The notes under the pieces were generated by a model that saw only the letters and a program-made list of their open reading frames with translations, did not search any database and was not told the DNA's origin. From NCBI RefSeq assembly GCF_947490415.1, contig NZ_CANLGX010000001.1, forward strand, positions 868,001 through 932,000: DNA of 64,000 nt, read 5' to 3'. Position numbers and translations under genes: made by a program. Shown piece by piece: positions 316 through 64,000 of this stretch (position 1 is the stretch's first letter; every line of letters starts with the position of its first letter). The DNA comes from an uncultured Eudoraea sp. Its GTDB lineage: Bacteria > Bacteroidota > Bacteroidia > Flavobacteriales > Flavobacteriaceae.

Positions 316-654
316 TAGTTCAATGGCTTGGGAAATATTATTATCGGCCTTAGGTATTATTGTTTTAAATGTTTAGGCAGAGTTTCACCAATATGATTGT
401 TTTAACGACGAAATTAGAGGTATTAATACTCCTTGTTTATTTTTTGTTGTGAAAGAGATGTTTTTTGTCGTGTACGATCAACTTATGTATTTCATCGATA
501 AAAAGGAAGGTGGATTGTCTATTATATTCTGTATGGAAAGTACTACAAAATGGCCTGAAGCGTTATTTCAAATTGTCTGTTAGGCCAATAAAAAAGGGAG
601 TATATAAACAAAACGATAGGTATAATATAAAGATATAATCTTTTCATATCCCAT
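316..654. other. Gene-free stretch between SPOR gene and tatA terminator
   Basis: There is no convincing gene here. It holds the leader and regulatory site of the SPOR gene in its left half. The right half has only a 32-codon ORF (485-583) with no supporting features and a loose 6-bp inverted repeat TGGCCT/AGGCCA around 552-588. Confidence 0.5.
409..474 (-). promoter_or_regulatory. Tandem 10-bp repeat plus -7-like box upstream of the SPOR gene
   Basis: On the minus strand the order is TACACGACAA (474-465), 11 bp, TTCACAACAA (453-444), 27 bp, then TAATTTCG (416-409), one base off the Bacteroidetes -7 consensus TAnnTTTG. A start at about 402 would leave an 87-nt leader before the ATG at 315. 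The two 10-mers are direct repeats in phase (21 bp, two helical turns), as expected for a dimeric activator; LytTR-type regulators bind such repeats. The same layout recurs at 60569-60634. The repeats are seen; the regulator is inferred. Confidence 0.45.
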
Positions 655-56676: not shown

Positions 56677-59019
56677 ATGGCAAAAGCCCGGAAAAAGAAG
56701 GTTTCTTCCAACTTTTCTAAGTTTATTAAATGGTTTTGGATTCTGTTTGCATCAGGTCTTTTTTTGATATTTTTAATATTTCTTTTAGCTTCCTGGGGAT
56801 TTTTGGGAGAAATGCCAACATTTGAACGGTTGGAGAATCCACAGACAAATTTAGCGACTGAGATCATCTCTTCAGATGGTCAAACCCTTGGAAAATTTTA
56901 TTTAGATGACAACAGAACCCCTGTGTCCTATAATGAATTGCCGGAGAATTTGGTTAATGCCCTGGTTGCTACAGAAGATGCAAGATATTTTGATCATTCC
57001 GGGATAGATGCCAGAGGTACTTTGAGAGCAATGGTATTTCTTGGTAAGCGAGGGGGCGCCAGTACAATTTCTCAACAATTATCTAAATTACTATTCACCA
57101 AAAGAATATCCGGCGGAGCTGCAGGCAGGATTATACAAAAAGTAAAGGAATGGGTAATAGCGATACGTCTGGAAAGGCAATATACCAAGGAAGAGATAAT
57201 TGCCTGGTATCTGAACACCTATGATTTTATAAATAATGCAGACGGAATACGCTCCGCATCAAGAATTTATTTTGGAAAAGAACCCATTGAGTTAAAGGCG
57301 GAAGAATCTGCTGTACTGGTTGGAATGTTAAAAAATTCTTCACTCTATAACCCCATCAGAAGAGAAGAATTAGTATTGAATCGACGTAACACTGTATTGG
57401 GTCAAATGGCTAAATATGACTTTATTACTGAAAAGGAAAAGGATTCACTACAGGCGTTAAAAATGGACATAAATTTTACACCGGAATCTCATAGGGATGG
57501 TCTTGCTACCTATTTCAGAATGTATTTACAAGGGTTTCTAAATGATTGGATTGAAAAAAACCCCAGACCTGCAGAAGAAGGTGAAAGAGATCGGTGGAAT
57601 ATTTATTTGGACGGACTTAAAGTTTATACCACCGTTGATTACCGGATGCAGAAAAATGCTGAGGATGCCGTAAAGCAACATATGAAACGACTTCAAAAAG
57701 AGTTTTTTCATCAAAATACGCCGGATAGAAATGCAACGGCCCCATTTTTGGATCTGAATACTGAAGAGACAAACCGAATCATGGAGCGTGCTATGAGAAC
57801 TTCAGAACGCTGGCGAATCATGAAATCCAATGGTGCCTCTGAGAAAGAGATCAGGAGCTCATTTACGGAAAAAACCGAAATGACAGTATTTGATTGGAAT
57901 AGTGACACCCAGGAGAAGGATACCGTTATGACTCCATTAGATTCCATTAGGTATTATAAAACGTTTTTAAGGACTGCAATGATGTCAATGGAACCCCAAA
58001 CAGGCCATGTGAAGGCTTGGGTAGGGGGCCTTAACTATAAACATTTTCAATACGACAATGTAATACAGGGAGCAAGACAGGCCGGCTCGACTTTTAAACC
58101 ATTCGTTTATGCTGCTGCCATTGATCAACTGAGATTATCTCCCTGTGATTCACTTCCGGATAGTCAGTATTGTATTGAGGCAGGTAAACATGGTAACCCG
58201 GAACCATGGTGCCCTAAAAATGCTGATGGCAAGTTTTCCGGAAAGATGTATACTTTGAAACGTGCTCTTGCCAACTCTGTAAATTCAGTTACTGCTCAAT
58301 TGATAGACAGAGTAGGCCCTAAACCTGTTGTAGCCATTGTTAAAGATCTTGGATTAACGGGAGAGATTCTTGAAGTGCCTTCAATTGCCCTGGGAACCCC
58401 TGATTTGAATGTTTATGAAATGGTAGGGGCATATGGTACCTTCGTAAATCAAGGTGTTTATGTAAAACCGGTCATGGTTACCCGAATTGAAGATAAAAAT
58501 GGGGCTGTGCTCTTTGAGTACGTTCCTGAAACAAAAGACGTTCTGAGTAAGGAGGTAGCTTATGCAATGGTTAATTTAATGGAAGGGGTTACAGAAGGCG
58601 GATCAGGAACCAGACTACGGCATTCTTCCAATAAAGACCAAACGGTATATAAGGAGATAATCACCGGTTATCCTTATGAATTTACAAATCCGATTGCCGG
58701 AAAAACCGGAACAACACAGAACCAAAGTGACGGTTGGTTTATGGGAATGGTGCCCAATCTGGTGACAGGTGTATGGGTTGGAGGCGAAGATAGGGCTACA
58801 CATTTTAAGACTATTACATATGGTCAGGGAGCTTCGATGGCTTTACCGATATGGGCTTTATATATGAAAAGTAATTATGAGAATGAGGATTTAGGAATTT
58901 CTATGGATGAATTTCCAATACCGGAAGAGCTTACTATCAATGTTGATTGTTCAAAAGAAAATGAAGAAACCCCATTAAAAGATAATCTTGAAGACGACCT
59001 TGATGAGCTGGATTTTTAG
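56677..59019 (+). CDS. Class A penicillin-binding protein (PBP1A-like)
   Basis: The 780-residue bifunctional enzyme has a transmembrane helix (about 18-40), a glycosyltransferase domain with the catalytic Glu in ATEDARYFDHSGID and ASTISQQLSKLL (about 85-130), and a transpeptidase domain with the SxxK motif in AGSTFKPF (about 469-476), SVN and KTGTT (about 671-675). It polymerises and cross-links peptidoglycan at the periplasmic face. It ends the ricT-gldH-PBP unit, with a terminator after it. Confidence 0.95.
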   Translation: MAKARKKKVSSNFSKFIKWFWILFASGLFLIFLIFLLASWGFLGEMPTFERLENPQTNLATEIISSDGQTLGKFYLDDNRTPVSYNELPENLVNALVATEDARYFDHSGIDARGTLRAMVFLGKRGGASTISQQLSKLLFTKRISGGAAGRIIQKVKEWVIAIRLERQYTKEEIIAWYLNTYDFINNADGIRSASRIYFGKEPIELKAEESAVLVGMLKNSSLYNPIRREELVLNRRNTVLGQMAKYDFITEKEKDSLQALKMDINFTPESHRDGLATYFRMYLQGFLNDWIEKNPRPAEEGERDRWNIYLDGLKVYTTVDYRMQKNAEDAVKQHMKRLQKEFFHQNTPDRNATAPFLDLNTEETNRIMERAMRTSERWRIMKSNGASEKEIRSSFTEKTEMTVFDWNSDTQEKDTVMTPLDSIRYYKTFLRTAMMSMEPQTGHVKAWVGGLNYKHFQYDNVIQGARQAGSTFKPFVYAAAIDQLRLSPCDSLPDSQYCIEAGKHGNPEPWCPKNADGKFSGKMYTLKRALANSVNSVTAQLIDRVGPKPVVAIVKDLGLTGEILEVPSIALGTPDLNVYEMVGAYGTFVNQGVYVKPVMVTRIEDKNGAVLFEYVPETKDVLSKEVAYAMVNLMEGVTEGGSGTRLRHSSNKDQTVYKEIITGYPYEFTNPIAGKTGTTQNQSDGWFMGMVPNLVTGVWVGGEDRATHFKTITYGQGASMALPIWALYMKSNYENEDLGISMDEFPIPEELTINVDCSKENEETPLKDNLEDDLDELDF

Positions 59020-59057
59020 AAAATTTCAATAATATTCAAAATTTAACGAATTAAACT

Positions 59058-59084
59058 AATCTCGCCAAATGGCGGGATTTTTTA
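59058..59084 (+). terminator. Rho-independent terminator of the gldH-PBP unit
   Basis: AATCTCGCC (59058-59066) and GGCGGGATT (59071-59079) form nine pairs with one G-U and a four-base loop, followed by a T-run. Confidence 0.88.
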
Positions 59085-59145
59085 TTTAAAAATGTACTTT
59101 AGTAGTAATAAGAAATAGCATTTTTAACCAGCTTATTTATTACTT

Positions 59146-59847
59146 ATGATACGTAAAACAGTGGCCAATGTACAGGAGGCATTAAAAGGAGTAGAAGACG
59201 GAATGACCTTTATGCTAGGGGGTTTTGGGCTTTGCGGCATACCTGAAAATGCAATTTCAGAACTCGTTCGTTTGGGAATAAAAGATATTACCTGTATTAG
59301 TAATAATGCGGGAGTTGATGATTTTGGTCTGGGCTTATTACTTCAGAAACATCAGATTAAAAAAATGATCTCTTCATATGTTGGTGAAAATGACGAATTT
59401 GAACGACAAATGCTAAGTGGGGAATTAGATGTAGAATTAACGCCTCAGGGAACCCTTGCGGAAAAATGTAGAGCGGCTCAAGCCGGATTCCCGGCCTTCT
59501 ATACCCCCGCGGGGTATGGAACCGAGGTAGCAGAGGGTAAGGAAACACGAGATTTTAAGGGTAAAATGTATGTTCTTGAGCACGCCTTTGAAGCTAATTT
59601 TTCATTTGTTAAGGCCTGGAAGGGTGATGAAGCCGGGAATTTGATTTTCAAAGGGACTGCACGTAATTTTAATCCTTGCATGTGCGGTGCCGCTAAGATA
59701 ACAGTAGCAGAAGTAGAAGAATTAGTGCCCGCTGGTGGTCTTGATCCAAATGAAATACATATCCCCGGTATATTTGTTCAACGAATCTTCCAGGGAGAAC
59801 ACTATGAAAAGAGAATAGAACAACGTACTGTAAGATCGCGGAACTAA
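59146..59847 (+). CDS. scoA: 3-oxoacid CoA-transferase, subunit A
   Basis: The 233-residue protein has the CoA-transferase family I alpha features: [42 protein letters not shown] and [30 protein letters not shown]. With the beta subunit it moves CoA between succinate and acetoacetate (SCOT activity). It is 21 nt from the beta gene. Confidence 0.95.
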
Positions 59848-59868
59848 ATACTAATTAAAGATCATATT

Positions 59869-60522
59869 ATGCTGGATAAAATTGGTATAGCAAAAAGAAT
59901 TGCAAGGGAAGTGAAAGATGGGTTTTATGTCAATCTTGGAATTGGCATTCCAACCCTTGTGGCAAATTATGTCAGAGATGATATTAGCGTTGAATTTCAA
60001 AGTGAAAATGGTGTTTTGGGCATGGGCCCATTCCCTTATGAAGGTGAAGAAGATGCCGATATCATTAATGCCGGCAAACAGACCATTACAACCTTACCAG
60101 GGGCTTCCTTTTTTGACTCTGCAACTAGTTTTGGAATGATTCGCGGAAAACACGTTGACCTTACCATTCTCGGAGCTATGGAAGTATCACAAAATGGAGA
60201 TATTGCCAATTGGAAAATACCCGGAAAAATGGTAAAAGGAATGGGTGGAGCAATGGATCTTGTTGCATCGGCAGAGAATATTATTGTGGCAATGATGCAT
60301 ACAAATAAGAAAGGAGAATCAAAGCTGTTAAAAAAATGTTTCCTGCCTCTTACTGGTGTTGGTTGTGTAAAAAAAGTGGTGACCAATCTTGGGGTTCTGG
60401 AGGTTACTTCAAAGGGATTCCGATTGCTTGAAAGAGCTCCGGGTGTCAGTGTTGATACTATAAAACAGGCAACGGAGGGAACATTAATTGTTGAAGGAGA
60501 TATTCCGGAGATGACCGTTTAA
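59869..60522 (+). CDS. scoB: 3-oxoacid CoA-transferase, subunit B
   Basis: The 217-residue protein has KDGFYVNLGIGIPTLVANYV and the catalytic glutamate in VEFQSENGVLGMGPF, then GGAMDLVASAENIIVAMMHTNKKGESKLLKKCFLPLTGVGCV. These mark the beta half of family I CoA-transferases. It completes the scoAB pair. Confidence 0.95.
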   Translation: MLDKIGIAKRIAREVKDGFYVNLGIGIPTLVANYVRDDISVEFQSENGVLGMGPFPYEGEEDADIINAGKQTITTLPGASFFDSATSFGMIRGKHVDLTILGAMEVSQNGDIANWKIPGKMVKGMGGAMDLVASAENIIVAMMHTNKKGESKLLKKCFLPLTGVGCVKKVVTNLGVLEVTSKGFRLLERAPGVSVDTIKQATEGTLIVEGDIPEMTV

Positions 60523-60568
60523 CGATCAAAATAAACGCTTTATCGATAAATTTAAATGAGTTACTTTT

Positions 60569-60634
60569 TTCACAACAATTTGGAGATACTTCACAACAAA
60601 TTTTTAGATGCTTGAATCGCACACATTATCTTTA
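60569..60634 (+). promoter_or_regulatory. Tandem 10-bp repeat plus -7 box of a small transcription unit
   Basis: TTCACAACAA (60569-60578), 11 bp, TTCACAACAA (60590-60599), 27 bp, then TATCTTTA (60627-60634), one base off TAnnTTTG. Period and spacing are identical to the minus-strand site at 409-474. Transcription would start near 60641. Direct repeats with a 21-bp period suit LytTR-type or similar dimeric activators bound just upstream of the polymerase; the regulator itself is not known. Confidence 0.55.
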
Positions 60635-60684
60635 TAGCATATTTATTAAACCCCAAATCTTATTTTATTAAAATTCCAAAATCT

Positions 60685-60792
60685 ATGGACGCACAAATTA
60701 ACCACAGACCTATTGAAGAAGAAATTCAGGTATACCGAAACGAATTTTTTAGCGGTATAGTAATGTTGACCAGAAAACTGTTTATGTTTTAG
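60685..60792 (+). CDS. Possible 35-residue peptide in an isolated small transcription unit
   Basis: ATG 60685 opens a 35-codon frame ending at TAG 60790-60792, with an acidic first half (RPIEEEIQVYRNEFF) and a hydrophobic/basic second half (SGIVMLTRKLFMF). It has a promoter-like element with a tandem repeat upstream and a strong terminator 20 nt downstream, so the unit is complete even though very short. The transcript could equally be a regulatory RNA. The peptide resembles no protein known to me. Confidence 0.4.
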   Translation: MDAQINHRPIEEEIQVYRNEFFSGIVMLTRKLFMF

Positions 60793-60810
60793 TACGTAAT
60801 CACAAAATAT

Positions 60811-60847
60811 TTAAAGGAGTAAAGCAATATGTTTTACTCCTTTTTTT
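60811..60847 (+). terminator. Rho-independent terminator of the small transcription unit
   Basis: AAAGGAGTAAA (60813-60823) pairs with TTTACTCCTTT (60833-60843), extended by two further pairs to a five-base loop AATAT, followed by a run of T. One of the strongest hairpins in the window. Confidence 0.88.
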
Positions 60848-60872
60848 ATTTTAGGGGATATTTCATAACAGT

Positions 60873-61403
60873 ATGAAACTTCATTTATCAAAATGTACTA
60901 CTTCTGATTTAGATAAACTTATTTCAATTTCCAGAAAGACATTTATTGATGCATTTAAATTGGAAAATAACCCGGATGATTTTAATGCCTATATGAAAAA
61001 GGCTTTTTCTGAAGAACAACTTTTAATGGAACTGGCAGACCCTCGGATGTCATTTTATTTGGTTTTTTCAGAAAATGAGGTTTTAGGATATTTTAAATTA
61101 AATGAAGATGAAGCACAAGGAGACATAAAGGATAAAAATGCCATTGAATTAGAAAGAATTTATGTAAAAAATACATTTCAGGGAAACAAAATAGGGCATT
61201 GGATGCTAAATCAAATTAAATATATTGCGGCCAACAAAAAAAAGAGCTACTTATGGCTTGGCGTATGGGAGAAGAATACCAATGCCATCAGATTTTATGA
61301 AAAGAATGGATTTATAAAATTTGGAAGGCATCCTTATTATATTGGCAGCGATAAACAAATGGATTGGCTAATGAAACTGAATTTGGTTAACTTGGAAAAA
61401 TAA
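60873..61403 (+). CDS. GNAT family N-acetyltransferase
   Basis: The 176-residue protein has the acetyl-CoA-binding core ELERIYVKNTFQGNKIGHWMLNQIKYIAANKKKSYLWLGVWEKNTNAIRFYEKNGFIKFGRHPYYIGSD, with the QGNKIG pyrophosphate loop. It transfers acetyl to an amine; the substrate is not predictable. The tail is close to RimI/PaiA-like members. It is followed 11 nt later by the serine hydrolase gene. Confidence 0.9.
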   Translation: MKLHLSKCTTSDLDKLISISRKTFIDAFKLENNPDDFNAYMKKAFSEEQLLMELADPRMSFYLVFSENEVLGYFKLNEDEAQGDIKDKNAIELERIYVKNTFQGNKIGHWMLNQIKYIAANKKKSYLWLGVWEKNTNAIRFYEKNGFIKFGRHPYYIGSDKQMDWLMKLNLVNLEK

Positions 61404-61414
61404 TACTATAAAGA

Positions 61415-62578
61415 ATGTATATAAAAACCCTTGTCCTCGCTATTTTATTATTTGCGATAAATACTGCTATTGGTCAGCAGGCTTATTATTTTCCTGAAAG
61501 AAATGCTGAATGGCAGGAAAGGCCCCCAGCCTCTTTTAATCTCAATGAAACGAAGCTGAATGAAGCTGTCAATTTTGCCAAAGGGAACGAGTATTCGGGG
61601 TCAAGAGATTTACGGATTGCAGTTTTAAAGGGGTTTGAGCGAGAACCATTTCATCAAATTTTAGGACCTACTAAAAAACGGGGAGGGCCGGCAGGTATAA
61701 TCTTGAAAAACGGTTACATTGTTCAAAAATGGGGAGATATTAAACGTGTTGACATGACTTTTAGCGTAACTAAAAGTTTTTTGTCTACCGTTGCAGGCCT
61801 TGCTGTAGATAATCATCTAATTGAAAGTACAGAGGACAAAGTTTCCTCTTATATCTGGGATGGCACATTTGCAGGAGAACACAATAGCAAAATTAGCTGG
61901 AAGCATTTACTACAACAAAATTCAGATTGGTCAGGAGAGTTATGGGGTGGCAAGGATTGGGCAGACAGACCTCCAAAAGATGGAGAATTGGATGATTGGA
62001 AATTCAGAGAACTCAAGGAACCCGGCACCGTAATGGAATATAATGATGTCCGTGTAAATGTACTGGCTTATGCATTGACACACGTTTGGCGAAAGCCCGT
62101 TCCTGTTGTACTCAAGGAGCATATAATGGATAAAATTGGAGCTTCAACTACATGGCGCTGGTATGGCTACGAAAATGCCTGGACTGTAATTGACGGAATA
62201 AAAATGAAATCTGTTACTGGCGGTGGTCATTCAGGAGCAGGAATTTTTATAAGTACAGAAGATATGGCCCGTTTTGGCTTGCTATTTCTTAATAGTGGAA
62301 AATGGAACTCAGAACAGCTTCTCAGCGAGGCCTGGATACAGGAAGCAACAACCCCTTCAGTACCAAACCCTAATTATGGCTATATGTGGTGGCTTAACAA
62401 TAAAGGGGATCGGCATTGGAAGGGGCTTTCAGAAGACATCTACTATGCGTCCGGTTTTGGAGGGAATTTTATTGTAATTGATAAGGCTAATAATCTGGTA
62501 GTGATCACAAGATGGCTGGAACCCTCTAAGATTGGAGATTTGATGGTTCTAATTAATGGCGCAATAGAAGGGAATTAG
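61415..62578 (+). CDS. Secreted serine hydrolase (beta-lactamase class C-like)
   Basis: The 387-residue protein has a signal peptide (to about residue 20). The SxxK motif is in MTFSVTKSFLSTVAG (Ser-Val-Thr-Lys, near residue 113), and the tyrosine motif is in MEYNDVRVN (YND, near residue 208). A C-terminal glycine-rich YASGFGGN region stands for the KTG-like strand. The family contains esterases, D-aminopeptidases and class C beta-lactamases, and this one cannot be assigned further; beta-lactam resistance should not be inferred. Confidence 0.85.
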   Translation: MYIKTLVLAILLFAINTAIGQQAYYFPERNAEWQERPPASFNLNETKLNEAVNFAKGNEYSGSRDLRIAVLKGFEREPFHQILGPTKKRGGPAGIILKNGYIVQKWGDIKRVDMTFSVTKSFLSTVAGLAVDNHLIESTEDKVSSYIWDGTFAGEHNSKISWKHLLQQNSDWSGELWGGKDWADRPPKDGELDDWKFRELKEPGTVMEYNDVRVNVLAYALTHVWRKPVPVVLKEHIMDKIGASTTWRWYGYENAWTVIDGIKMKSVTGGGHSGAGIFISTEDMARFGLLFLNSGKWNSEQLLSEAWIQEATTPSVPNPNYGYMWWLNNKGDRHWKGLSEDIYYASGFGGNFIVIDKANNLVVITRWLEPSKIGDLMVLINGAIEGN

Positions 62579-62642
62579 CATATTTTGTAATTGATAAAAC
62601 CAAAAATAGCATTAAGTCATCGACTATCTGACTGGGGGAAAG

Positions 62643-63800
62643 TTATATTGAAGTAATGATTTCAGCCGCCTTTAAGAGGGTCTCAGTGGTCTTTGCAAAA
62701 CAAATCCGTATCTGATTATTATCTACAAGATCTTTATTAAAAACTGAAATTGGGATACAGGCAATACCGAATTCTTTAACGAGTCTTTCTGCAAAATCAA
62801 GATCACTTTCGTCAGTGATTTCTGCAAAATCCAATAGCTGAAAATAAGTTCCCCGAGTAGGTGTAAACTTGAATCTGGAATTTTTGATTGCTGTTAAAAA
62901 CAAATCCCGTTTTTGCTGATAAAAAGGCCCTAGATCTAAGTAGTGTGCAGGGTTCTTAAGGTATTCTGCCAATGCTCTCTGAAAGGGGTGGTTAACGCAA
63001 AACACATTGAATTCATGAATTTTCTGAAATTCTTTCATTAGCTCTGCCGGCGCCACACAATAACCCATTTTCCACCCGGTTGCATGAAAAGTTTTACCAA
63101 AAGAGGCACAAACAAGGCTTCGCGAGGCTAAATCGGGGTATTTAGAAGCACTCTCGTGGATGTTATTATCAAATACAATATGTTCATACACTTCATCGCT
63201 CAATAAAATGATATTCGTGTCTTTTAGACAACTTTGGAGCATTAACATGTCGGAATTTGAAAATACCATCCCACTTGGATTATGTGGTGTATTAATGATG
63301 ACCATCCTGGTTTTGTCACTAAGATGTGATTTAAATACATCCCAATCTATAGCATAGTCCTTTCCTGTTAATTGAATTAACACAGGAATACCACCATTGG
63401 CTATTATAGCCGGTTCATAACAATCATAGGCCGGTTTAAGAACAATTACTTCGTCATTTGGCCAAACAAGTGCTGAAATAGCAGTAAAAATTGCTTGGGT
63501 AGCTCCTACTGTAATGGTTATTTCAGACTGCGGGTCGTATTTAGTTCCATATAAAAAGGCGATCTTTTCAGCAATAACCTCCTTAAGAGGATAAATACCA
63601 CCTAAAGGAGCATATTGATTATAACCCTCTTTCATTGCCTTGGTAACTAATTCTATAAGAGCGGGATCTGGTTCAAAATTGGGAAAACCCTGAGATATGT
63701 TAATGGCATTGTACTCTTTTGCGAGACCACTCATTGTGCTGAATATAGAATCAGGCAACTTTGGCAATTTGGAAGTAAGATGGTGTGCAGACGACTTCAT
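62643..63800 (-). CDS. PLP-dependent aminotransferase (methionine/kynurenine type)
   Basis: The 385-residue fold-type I aminotransferase has INISQGFPNFEPDP (about 34-47), the pattern NTPHNPSGMVF, LLSDEVYEHIVFD, the PLP lysine in CASFGKTFHATGWKMGYCVAP (near residue 233), and the C-terminal arginine in QIRICFAKT. It resembles YbdL and kynurenine-oxoglutarate aminotransferases; it transfers an amino group from methionine or aromatic amino acids. It is read in the same direction as sdhB. Confidence 0.9.
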   Translation of the reverse strand: MKSSAHHLTSKLPKLPDSIFSTMSGLAKEYNAINISQGFPNFEPDPALIELVTKAMKEGYNQYAPLGGIYPLKEVIAEKIAFLYGTKYDPQSEITITVGATQAIFTAISALVWPNDEVIVLKPAYDCYEPAIIANGGIPVLIQLTGKDYAIDWDVFKSHLSDKTRMVIINTPHNPSGMVFSNSDMLMLQSCLKDTNIILLSDEVYEHIVFDNNIHESASKYPDLASRSLVCASFGKTFHATGWKMGYCVAPAELMKEFQKIHEFNVFCVNHPFQRALAEYLKNPAHYLDLGPFYQQKRDLFLTAIKNSRFKFTPTRGTYFQLLDFAEITDESDLDFAERLVKEFGIACIPISVFNKDLVDNNQIRICFAKTTETLLKAAEIITSI

Positions 63801-63852
63801 AGCAGATTAGTTATGGTAAAAATAGCAAAAAAGATACGGGATATTCCAAATA

Positions 63853-63882
63853 AAAATCCCGGATAGAATTATCCGGGATTTT
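63853..63882 (-). terminator. Terminator hairpin between sdhB and the aminotransferase gene
   Basis: AAAATCCCGGATA (63853-63865) and TATCCGGGATTTT (63870-63882) form 13 pairs around loop GAAT. It lies about 22 nt after the sdhB stop codon on the minus strand and probably terminates the sdh operon. Confidence 0.85.
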
Positions 63883-63903
63883 AGAAATATATACACTTTT
63901 CTT

Positions 63904-64000
63904 CTAGCCTTTTATTGAGGCGCCTAAATACTCTCTATTCATTCTGGCAATATTATCCAAAGAAATGCCTTTTGGGCATTCTATCTCACATGCACCCGTA
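63904..64000 (-). CDS. sdhB: Succinate dehydrogenase iron-sulfur subunit, C-terminal end
   Basis: The last 32 codons lie in the window; the rest is off the right edge. The residues TGACEIECPKGISLDNIARMNREYLGASIKG match the C-terminal end of the Bacteroidetes SdhB, with the cysteines of the 3Fe-4S/4Fe-4S binding region (ACEIECPKGI). SdhB carries electrons from the flavoprotein SdhA to quinone. Confidence 0.85.
   Translation of the reverse strand, partial: TGACEIECPKGISLDNIARMNREYLGASIKG

Follow-up and report, generated by a model that had tools for sequence, protein, structure and literature searches.

What does the short intergenic stretch between scoB and a GNAT gene in an uncultured Eudoraea sp. 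produce, and what controls it? We analyzed this locus within a stretch of 64,000 nt, hereafter the window. The original prediction described an isolated unit running from promoter to terminator and proposed a regulatory RNA or a micropeptide as its product. Re-reading the sequence placed the repeats, the -7 box, the ORF and the terminator hairpin at their described positions, the hairpin having the limits, pair count and T-rich tail listed in Table 1. The 10-mer TTCACAACAA occurs at 60569-60578 and again at 60590-60599, with a period of 21, and TATCTTTA begins 27 bp past the second copy. Taken alone, this pattern proves little, because simple scans came out at chance level and the 64-kb window contains four exact 10-mer pairs (at least 3 letters) at a distance of 11-30 bp, the TTCACAACAA pair included. 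Within the 6-kb region 58000-64000, we counted five terminator-like sites versus 4.8 expected from shuffles, and 19 sigma-70-type promoter-like sites versus 19.2 expected; these consensus scans were thus left out of the evidence. It is conservation across genomes that lifts the predicted promoter and terminator features of the unit above chance.

Table 1. Features of the unit between scoB and the GNAT gene (positions in the window)
Feature	Position	Strand	Basis
Distal half-site TTCACAACA, presumed LytTR operator	60569..60577	+	Sequence; exact 12-bp spacer in 36/36 scored pairs
Proximal half-site TTCACAACA, presumed LytTR operator	60590..60598	+	Sequence; orthologous leaders
-7 box TATCTTTA	60627..60634	+	Flavobacterial consensus TAnnTTTG (passages of PMC9723704); final base here is A
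CCCAAATC leader element, close to predicted transcript 5' end	60652..60659	+	Core conserved among leaders
35-aa micropeptide ORF MDAQINHRPIEEEIQVYRNEFFSGIVMLTRKLFMF, 35 codons plus stop	60685..60792	+	Translation, orthologues, selection
Intrinsic terminator-like hairpin, then T-rich tail	60813..60843	+	14 pairs counted; orthologue hairpins

With a DNA query spanning scoB to the GNAT gene, 32 of 40 genomes gave a match (among them the window's own), many via scoB alone, and the intergenic unit could be aligned in 12 of the 40, again with the window's genome among them. Scanning the GTDB species collection by pattern and tblastn yielded 48 loci which, together with the window, represent 49 orthologues. 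The 48 loci derive from records titled Eudoraea, Maribacter, Zobellia, Arenibacter, Cellulophaga, Pricia and other Flavobacteriaceae or relatives, with Eudoraea records providing the closest orthologues. The encoded peptides measure 33-35 aa and comprise 42 distinct sequences. Across the 49 orthologues, the median dN/dS was 0.104 (203 non-independent pairs, 0.1<dS<1.5), the start codon is conserved and the stop codon aligned in 49/49. The codon-substitution analysis proposed as a check of the unit thus finds the ORF under purifying selection, and judged by its codons, the 35-codon ORF is a gene. Between the two products initially suggested, codon-level selection strongly supports the micropeptide, with the leader containing an element that is common to predicted non-coding RNAs. 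A terminator-like hairpin follows within 130 nt of the stop codon in 44 of the 49 orthologues. The end of the scoB gene lies directly upstream in 44/48 loci, a position that contradicts the description of the unit as isolated, and a GNAT relative is present on 38/48. In an order-wide sample, peptide matches were restricted to the same family (6/246 genomes). The window peptide had no match in Pfam, NCBIfam or PDB sequences, and a search of Rfam 15 at the gathering score returned none for the window and eight regulon stretches; the statement that no known family is recognizable therefore holds for the libraries searched.

We next consider the promoter. A half-site with at most one mismatch is present in 46/49 orthologous leaders and absent from three (L106-L108); the Cellulophaga leader has one half-site only. 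Where two half-sites occur (at most one mismatch each), the spacer is exactly 12 in 36 of 36 leaders. Of the 46 half-site leaders, 41 contain a TAnnTTTN box, in every case 28-29 nt past the last half-site. The window's TATCTTTA matches five of the six fixed bases of TAnnTTTG, at a position conserved among leaders, and a conventional -33 element was not evident by eye. Inspected in the same way, TTCACAACA may partially resemble the LytTR consensus on the reverse strand. The window's genome encodes a LytTR response regulator (G000:C3:562063-562812) beside a kinase having TPR repeats and a HisKA_2 domain (Pfam: LytTR 2.4e-17, Response_reg 1.9e-20, HisKA_2 3.6e-27). The arrangement of two direct repeats of 9-10 bp, 11-12 bp apart and upstream of a promoter, is that of LytTR operators, for which the passages of PMC2766830 drawn on here give 9-bp repeats with a 12-bp spacer and, for SilA, 10 bp with 11 bp. 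By geometry and by association with the regulator, we predict that the promoter contains a LytTR-type operator. Further upstream of the first repeat, at 60539-60553, the window carries TTTATCGATAAATTT; 31/49 leaders have a loosely similar, CGA-containing element in their upstream part, and such an element is visible in genomes without the regulator too.

The tandem pattern is not confined to the peptide gene. With up to three mismatches, it occurs 32 times in the window's genome as compared to ten times for the reversed control. Twelve of the 32 have at most two mismatches, a number at odds with an isolated unit. We examined 16 of the 32 sites by script. Own-genome sites precede the peptide gene, a pair of predicted twin RNAs (sRNA-A), two predicted short terminator-ended RNAs and the kinase gene at the regulator locus, a sorting-domain gene and further targets. 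We thus predict that the unit belongs to a regulon whose other members would include surface proteins, a bare T9SS sorting-domain protein and additional micropeptides as well as predicted non-coding RNAs. In the window's genome, the sRNA-A twins are without a long ORF, end in terminators and lie behind tandem sites. Of note, the twins (L111, G000:C1:953500-956500, minus strand) lie ~400 bp apart; each contains two CCCAAATC copies, and both combine perfect tandem sites with GC-rich terminators. Related rows from elsewhere are 117-181 nt long with no common ORF visible; among the sRNA-A rows, 32 conformed to a simple terminator rule and seven failed it. One fetched cluster comprises four tandem sites, three of which precede sRNA-A-like sequence, and clusters of up to four tandem sites were likewise seen in other genera. 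A short predicted RNA behind the LytTR gene (L110:4300-4460, minus strand) contains a near-invariant stretch, TCATTTTCATATAGTGTTCTCGTAAA, before its terminator, and this stretch recurs across genera (L161, L162, L163, L168).

The protein-coding targets are equally diverse. One site precedes the gene of a 109-aa protein with a signal-peptide-like start and a T9SS type A sorting domain (TIGR04183, 3.1e-14). Sorting-domain proteins of 106-109 aa recur in loci L118/L164, L172-L174, L180, L183, L184 and L197, the own-genome copy being the one tested against the profile, and their genes display a single TTCACAACA, with a degenerate ACCTAC-containing sequence taking the place of the first repeat. The next gene presumably encodes an acyl-protein-synthetase-like product. 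Two consecutive, related ORFs of 32 and 33 codons lie behind a presumed operator of the kind found at the peptide gene, in other genera as well (G000:C3:232342 in L042; L176; L193), and the own-genome pair had no match in Pfam or NCBIfam. Further site-preceded targets are a pair of DUF6747 proteins, a collagen-like surface protein (assigned by eye) and a SPOR/PD40/OmpA protein of 968 aa. The gene for the latter runs off the left end of the window and starts ~130 bp downstream of a second tandem site in the window (445-474, minus strand), which reads TACACGACA N12 TTCACAACA with two mismatches. Sites of the TTCACGACA type were also observed in genomes G129 and G248.

Homologues of the peptide extend beyond the regulator. 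For a family-wide comparison, we used the 299 family genomes that the searches for regulator, site and peptide had all sampled. A broader peptide model (A5) matched 127 of the 299 at E<=0.01, 78 of which are regulator-free, though the weakest matches may be false. Divergent peptides of 40-41 aa with LTKK(L/I)FM(L/F) tails had been found near a scoB match in three genomes without a regulator orthologue, and divergent homologues in regulator-free genomes span 40-43 aa altogether and mostly lie beside scoB. They gave no family match (two compared to Pfam, one to NCBIfam). We fetched 20 of the 78 regulator-free genomes, chosen from among the stronger matches, and found 16 of these hits within 500 nt of scoB. 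CACAACA / TTCACAACA was found in 0/20 leaders of these divergent homologues. Because such homologues occur without the regulator, LytTR control is not the only mode of the peptide. The peptide and its leader element thus reach across the family, LytTR control having presumably been added in one lineage or lost elsewhere. In many regulator-free leaders (L013, L017, L022, L295-L314), a different recurring stretch, approximately TGTTTTTAAACTGATTT, is seen by eye in place of the TTCACAACA repeats; it is perhaps the site of another regulator.

The leader element raises the question whether the RNA outweighs the peptide. If so, CCCAAATC would be a recognition element for an RNA-binding protein or a small RNA, and the regulon RNAs, mostly with one or two copies each, would act as decoys titrating this factor off mRNAs. 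Several observations point in this direction. A CCCAA/CCCGAA/CCCAG core is present in 47/49 leaders, 37 of which contain CCCAARTY, and CACAACA followed by CCCAARTC after 44-74 nt was detected in 51/58 regulator-positive genomes (163 matches, overlaps counted, versus 11 for the reversed control). Leaders of mRNAs and predicted non-coding RNAs share the element, often in a loop. Elements in peptide leaders, sRNAs and other targets were gathered by pattern from every fetched locus, probably with a few chance matches inside genes among them; for the 77 non-redundant ones, the stem score was 8.91 compared to 6.18 for re-dealt flanks. Re-dealt right flanks reached the observed score in 0/1000 cases for all 77, in 0/1000 for first copies and in 13/1000 for the 20 second copies, in shuffles that ignore relatedness. 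In alignment A4, consisting of 18 of the 49 leaders picked for the core and an apparent hairpin, so that its pair counts lean towards structure, two pairs vary on both sides (UA 9, CG 9; and AU 10, GC 4, CG 2, UA 1, one unpaired). Even without the regulator and its site, the 20 leaders of divergent homologues, which are interrelated, contain exact CCCAAATC in 15 and CCCAARTY in 16 cases, the chance expectation for exact CCCAAATC being ~0.003 per leader.

Other results argue against this titration reading. When leaders were taken unselected, shuffles reached the stem score in 23/1000 cases for 25 non-redundant rows, as compared to 0/1000 for 43 unique rows, and the window's own leader forms a stem of only three pairs. 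Folding alignment A3 of sRNA-A to a consensus returned no pairs (30 rows, made up of two L111 rows that start 19 nt earlier and 28 of the 32 conforming to the terminator rule); an outer stem of sRNA-A pairs in 90.5% of cells without changing on both sides, and we claim no covariation for it. Moreover, TTTAC-N2-32-CCCAAATC shows no enrichment across 22 regulator-free genomes (157 matches versus 144 controls), whereas CCCAAATC behind TTTAC occurs 48 times versus 19 controls in three regulator-positive genomes. In sum, we regard an RNA function overriding the peptide as unlikely, though its probability is appreciable. As for the element itself, a covarying hairpin appears often to surround CCCAAATC in peptide leaders, though not in the window's genus. 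Because the leader effect weakens in non-redundant rows and the window's stem has only three pairs, CCCAAATC is best described, on these comparisons, as a conserved sequence for which a hairpin context is frequent but not universal. Its sharing between mRNAs and RNAs hints at post-transcriptional control.

We then asked how tightly the tandem motif is tied to the LytTR regulator, given that LytTR binding to the repeats is a prediction and that another factor might bind them, with the LytTR protein merely co-occurring. AraC-type regulators, for instance, are able to use direct repeats spaced 21 bp, which would fit the period seen here. The distribution of the motif argues for the LytTR protein. 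Among the 299 family genomes, 58 have the regulator (E<=1e-80), 68 a tandem site (at most one mismatch) and 49 the peptide (model A2). A tandem site occurs in 58/58 regulator-positive genomes but in just 10/241 others; site counts were 296 versus 5 reversed-pattern controls in the former and 11 versus 9 in the latter. The regulator is present in 48 of the 49 genomes with an A2 peptide match. The motif thus tracks the regulator and not the peptide, as ten regulator-positive genomes without an A2 match each retain between one and ten tandem sites. The genomes that combine regulator, motif and close peptide are related to one another, and the co-occurrence thus partly reflects shared ancestry.

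Consistent with this association, sites lie within the LytTR locus itself. The 750 bp between the regulator and the TPR-HisKA_2 kinase contain three sites in the window's genome, the third with three mismatches. Among the 40 genomes, 12 possess a close regulator orthologue (89-100% identity, next best 41%), and these are the same 12 in which the peptide unit aligned; their regulator-kinase interval has at least one site in 12/12 and three sites in 9/12. More broadly, we compared 24 regulator loci: the 12 with close orthologues, seven of the ten regulator-positive genomes without an A2 match, and five fetched because sites had already been seen there, one of which (L155) is an eighth of the ten. 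Sites with at most two mismatches lie between regulator and kinase in 20/24 of these loci, or 15/19 without the five site-selected ones (10 of the 19 coming from the window's own genus), and the stretch examined has none in 4/24. For other LytTR genes, an adjacent site was found in 1/18. Considering also that 9+12 is the geometry of LytTR sites, it is improbable that a different factor is the one reading the repeats.

What kind of peptide does the unit encode? AlphaFold2 predicts a single helix for residues 3-34 (mean pLDDT 76.4), the net charge is -1, and conservation is far stronger in the C-terminal half than in the N-terminal one. These properties bear on a dual-function, RNAIII-like reading, in which a regulatory RNA would also encode an exported peptide that either signals to the TPR kinase or is surface-active. 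LytTR-family regulators do drive small RNAs in Gram-positive bacteria, RNAIII and FasX among them, according to passages of PMC3673130, and the TPR part of the kinase is preceded by an N-terminus that looks signal-peptide-like by eye. The micropeptide, on the other hand, has no signal peptide or GG leader by eye, and a delta-haemolysin-like amphipathic peptide was rejected as its helical moment is not above that of shuffles. Together with the charge and the uneven conservation, this makes an exported product very improbable. Finally, that the unit is a chance or decayed intergenic ORF with promoter- and terminator-like noise, as the chance-level scans might suggest, is refuted by codon selection (dN/dS 0.10) and the conserved half-site/-7 box spacing in a unit retained in 49 records, and is almost certainly wrong.

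The best explanation, which we hold to be likely, is a LytTR-activated, monocistronic micropeptide gene within a regulon. It builds on the computed conservation of peptide, promoter and neighbourhood, the motif-regulator association, the operator geometry and the site set, from which we infer regulator binding, activation as the direction of regulation, expression and translation. In this scheme, the kinase would sense a signal and the LytTR response regulator would become phosphorylated, bind the two TTCACAACA repeats as a dimer and recruit RNA polymerase to TATCTTTA at a promoter that should depend on activation. The product would be a ~200-nt monocistronic transcript with the CCCAAATC leader, encoding a 35-residue, mostly helical and presumably intracellular micropeptide. 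Because the CCCAAATC element is common to the predicted non-coding RNAs of the regulon, translation is probably tuned post-transcriptionally via the leader as well. Most likely, the peptide would act via a protein partner located at the inner membrane or close to it, and serve the response either as an effector or as a feedback element; what it does is speculative, and this assignment is more doubtful than not. By analogy to PorA of P. gingivalis, the bare sorting-domain protein could feed back on the kinase. We also entertain, as quite unlikely, a two-layer control system in Flavobacteriaceae. Here, the LytTR/TPR-kinase pair would activate the micropeptide mRNA, other micropeptides and several decoy RNA copies, all of them connected by one loop motif, CCCAAAUC, that an RNA-binding factor would read. 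Micropeptide and leader motif would predate LytTR control, pointing to a post-transcriptional regulator that is found across the family and has no known counterpart.

The LytTR-activated gene would represent a conserved micropeptide family outside the searched profile libraries, with a likely regulator, operator and co-regulated small RNAs. The whole regulon thereby becomes testable in marine isolates that have been named: peptide genes of Zobellia and Maribacter, for example, are preceded by the tandem motif, and Zobellia uliginosa has the unit. In the open-licence PMC literature, nothing related was among the matches listed for the motif letters. Open-licence searches on LytTR in flavobacteria or gliding, flavobacterial transcriptomes, dual-function sRNAs and LytTR-driven Gram-positive RNAs did not return the system among the matches listed, and there were none on DUF6747 or on conserved small proteins. 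Among the matches listed from the open-licence literature, the peptide family, operator, sRNA set and shared leader element were thus not encountered.

Several known systems nevertheless invite comparison. In Csr/Rsm, a two-component system drives several decoy RNAs, and their loop motif is also found in mRNA leaders; the resemblance to this titration is analogy only, the motif here being CCCAAATC instead of GGA. PorX is not known to be a LytTR protein. PorXY-SigP/PorA, which regulates the T9SS, is nonetheless similar in being a Bacteroidota two-component system with a small CTD-containing T9SS protein tied in, as the relevant passages of PMC7712824 describe. There, the small CTD protein PorA of P. 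gingivalis is an input placed upstream of the PorXY kinase, whereas the 106-109-aa bare sorting-domain protein is a likely output here, and PorXY acts through an ECF sigma factor, with no micropeptide or small RNAs in those passages (PMC7712824). Rfp18 and other flavobacterial small RNAs are likewise independent small transcripts in Flavobacteriaceae; compared by description only, in passages of PMC9723704, they show no link to a micropeptide or to a LytTR operator. The closest parallels are AgrA/RNAIII, FasA/FasX, VirSR/VR-RNA and SilAB, which, in the source passages drawn on, share with our system a regulator of the LytTR type, direct repeats in tandem (9+12 or 10+11 bp), and small RNAs or small peptides among the outputs. 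In contrast to them, the system described here belongs to Bacteroidota, has a TPR-HisKA_2 kinase and the motif TTCACAACA, comprises several predicted non-coding RNAs sharing CCCAAATC with mRNA leaders, and has no recognized secreted peptide pheromone. LytTR control over small RNAs and peptides is best known from Gram-positive bacteria, and the present system would add Bacteroidota to its range.
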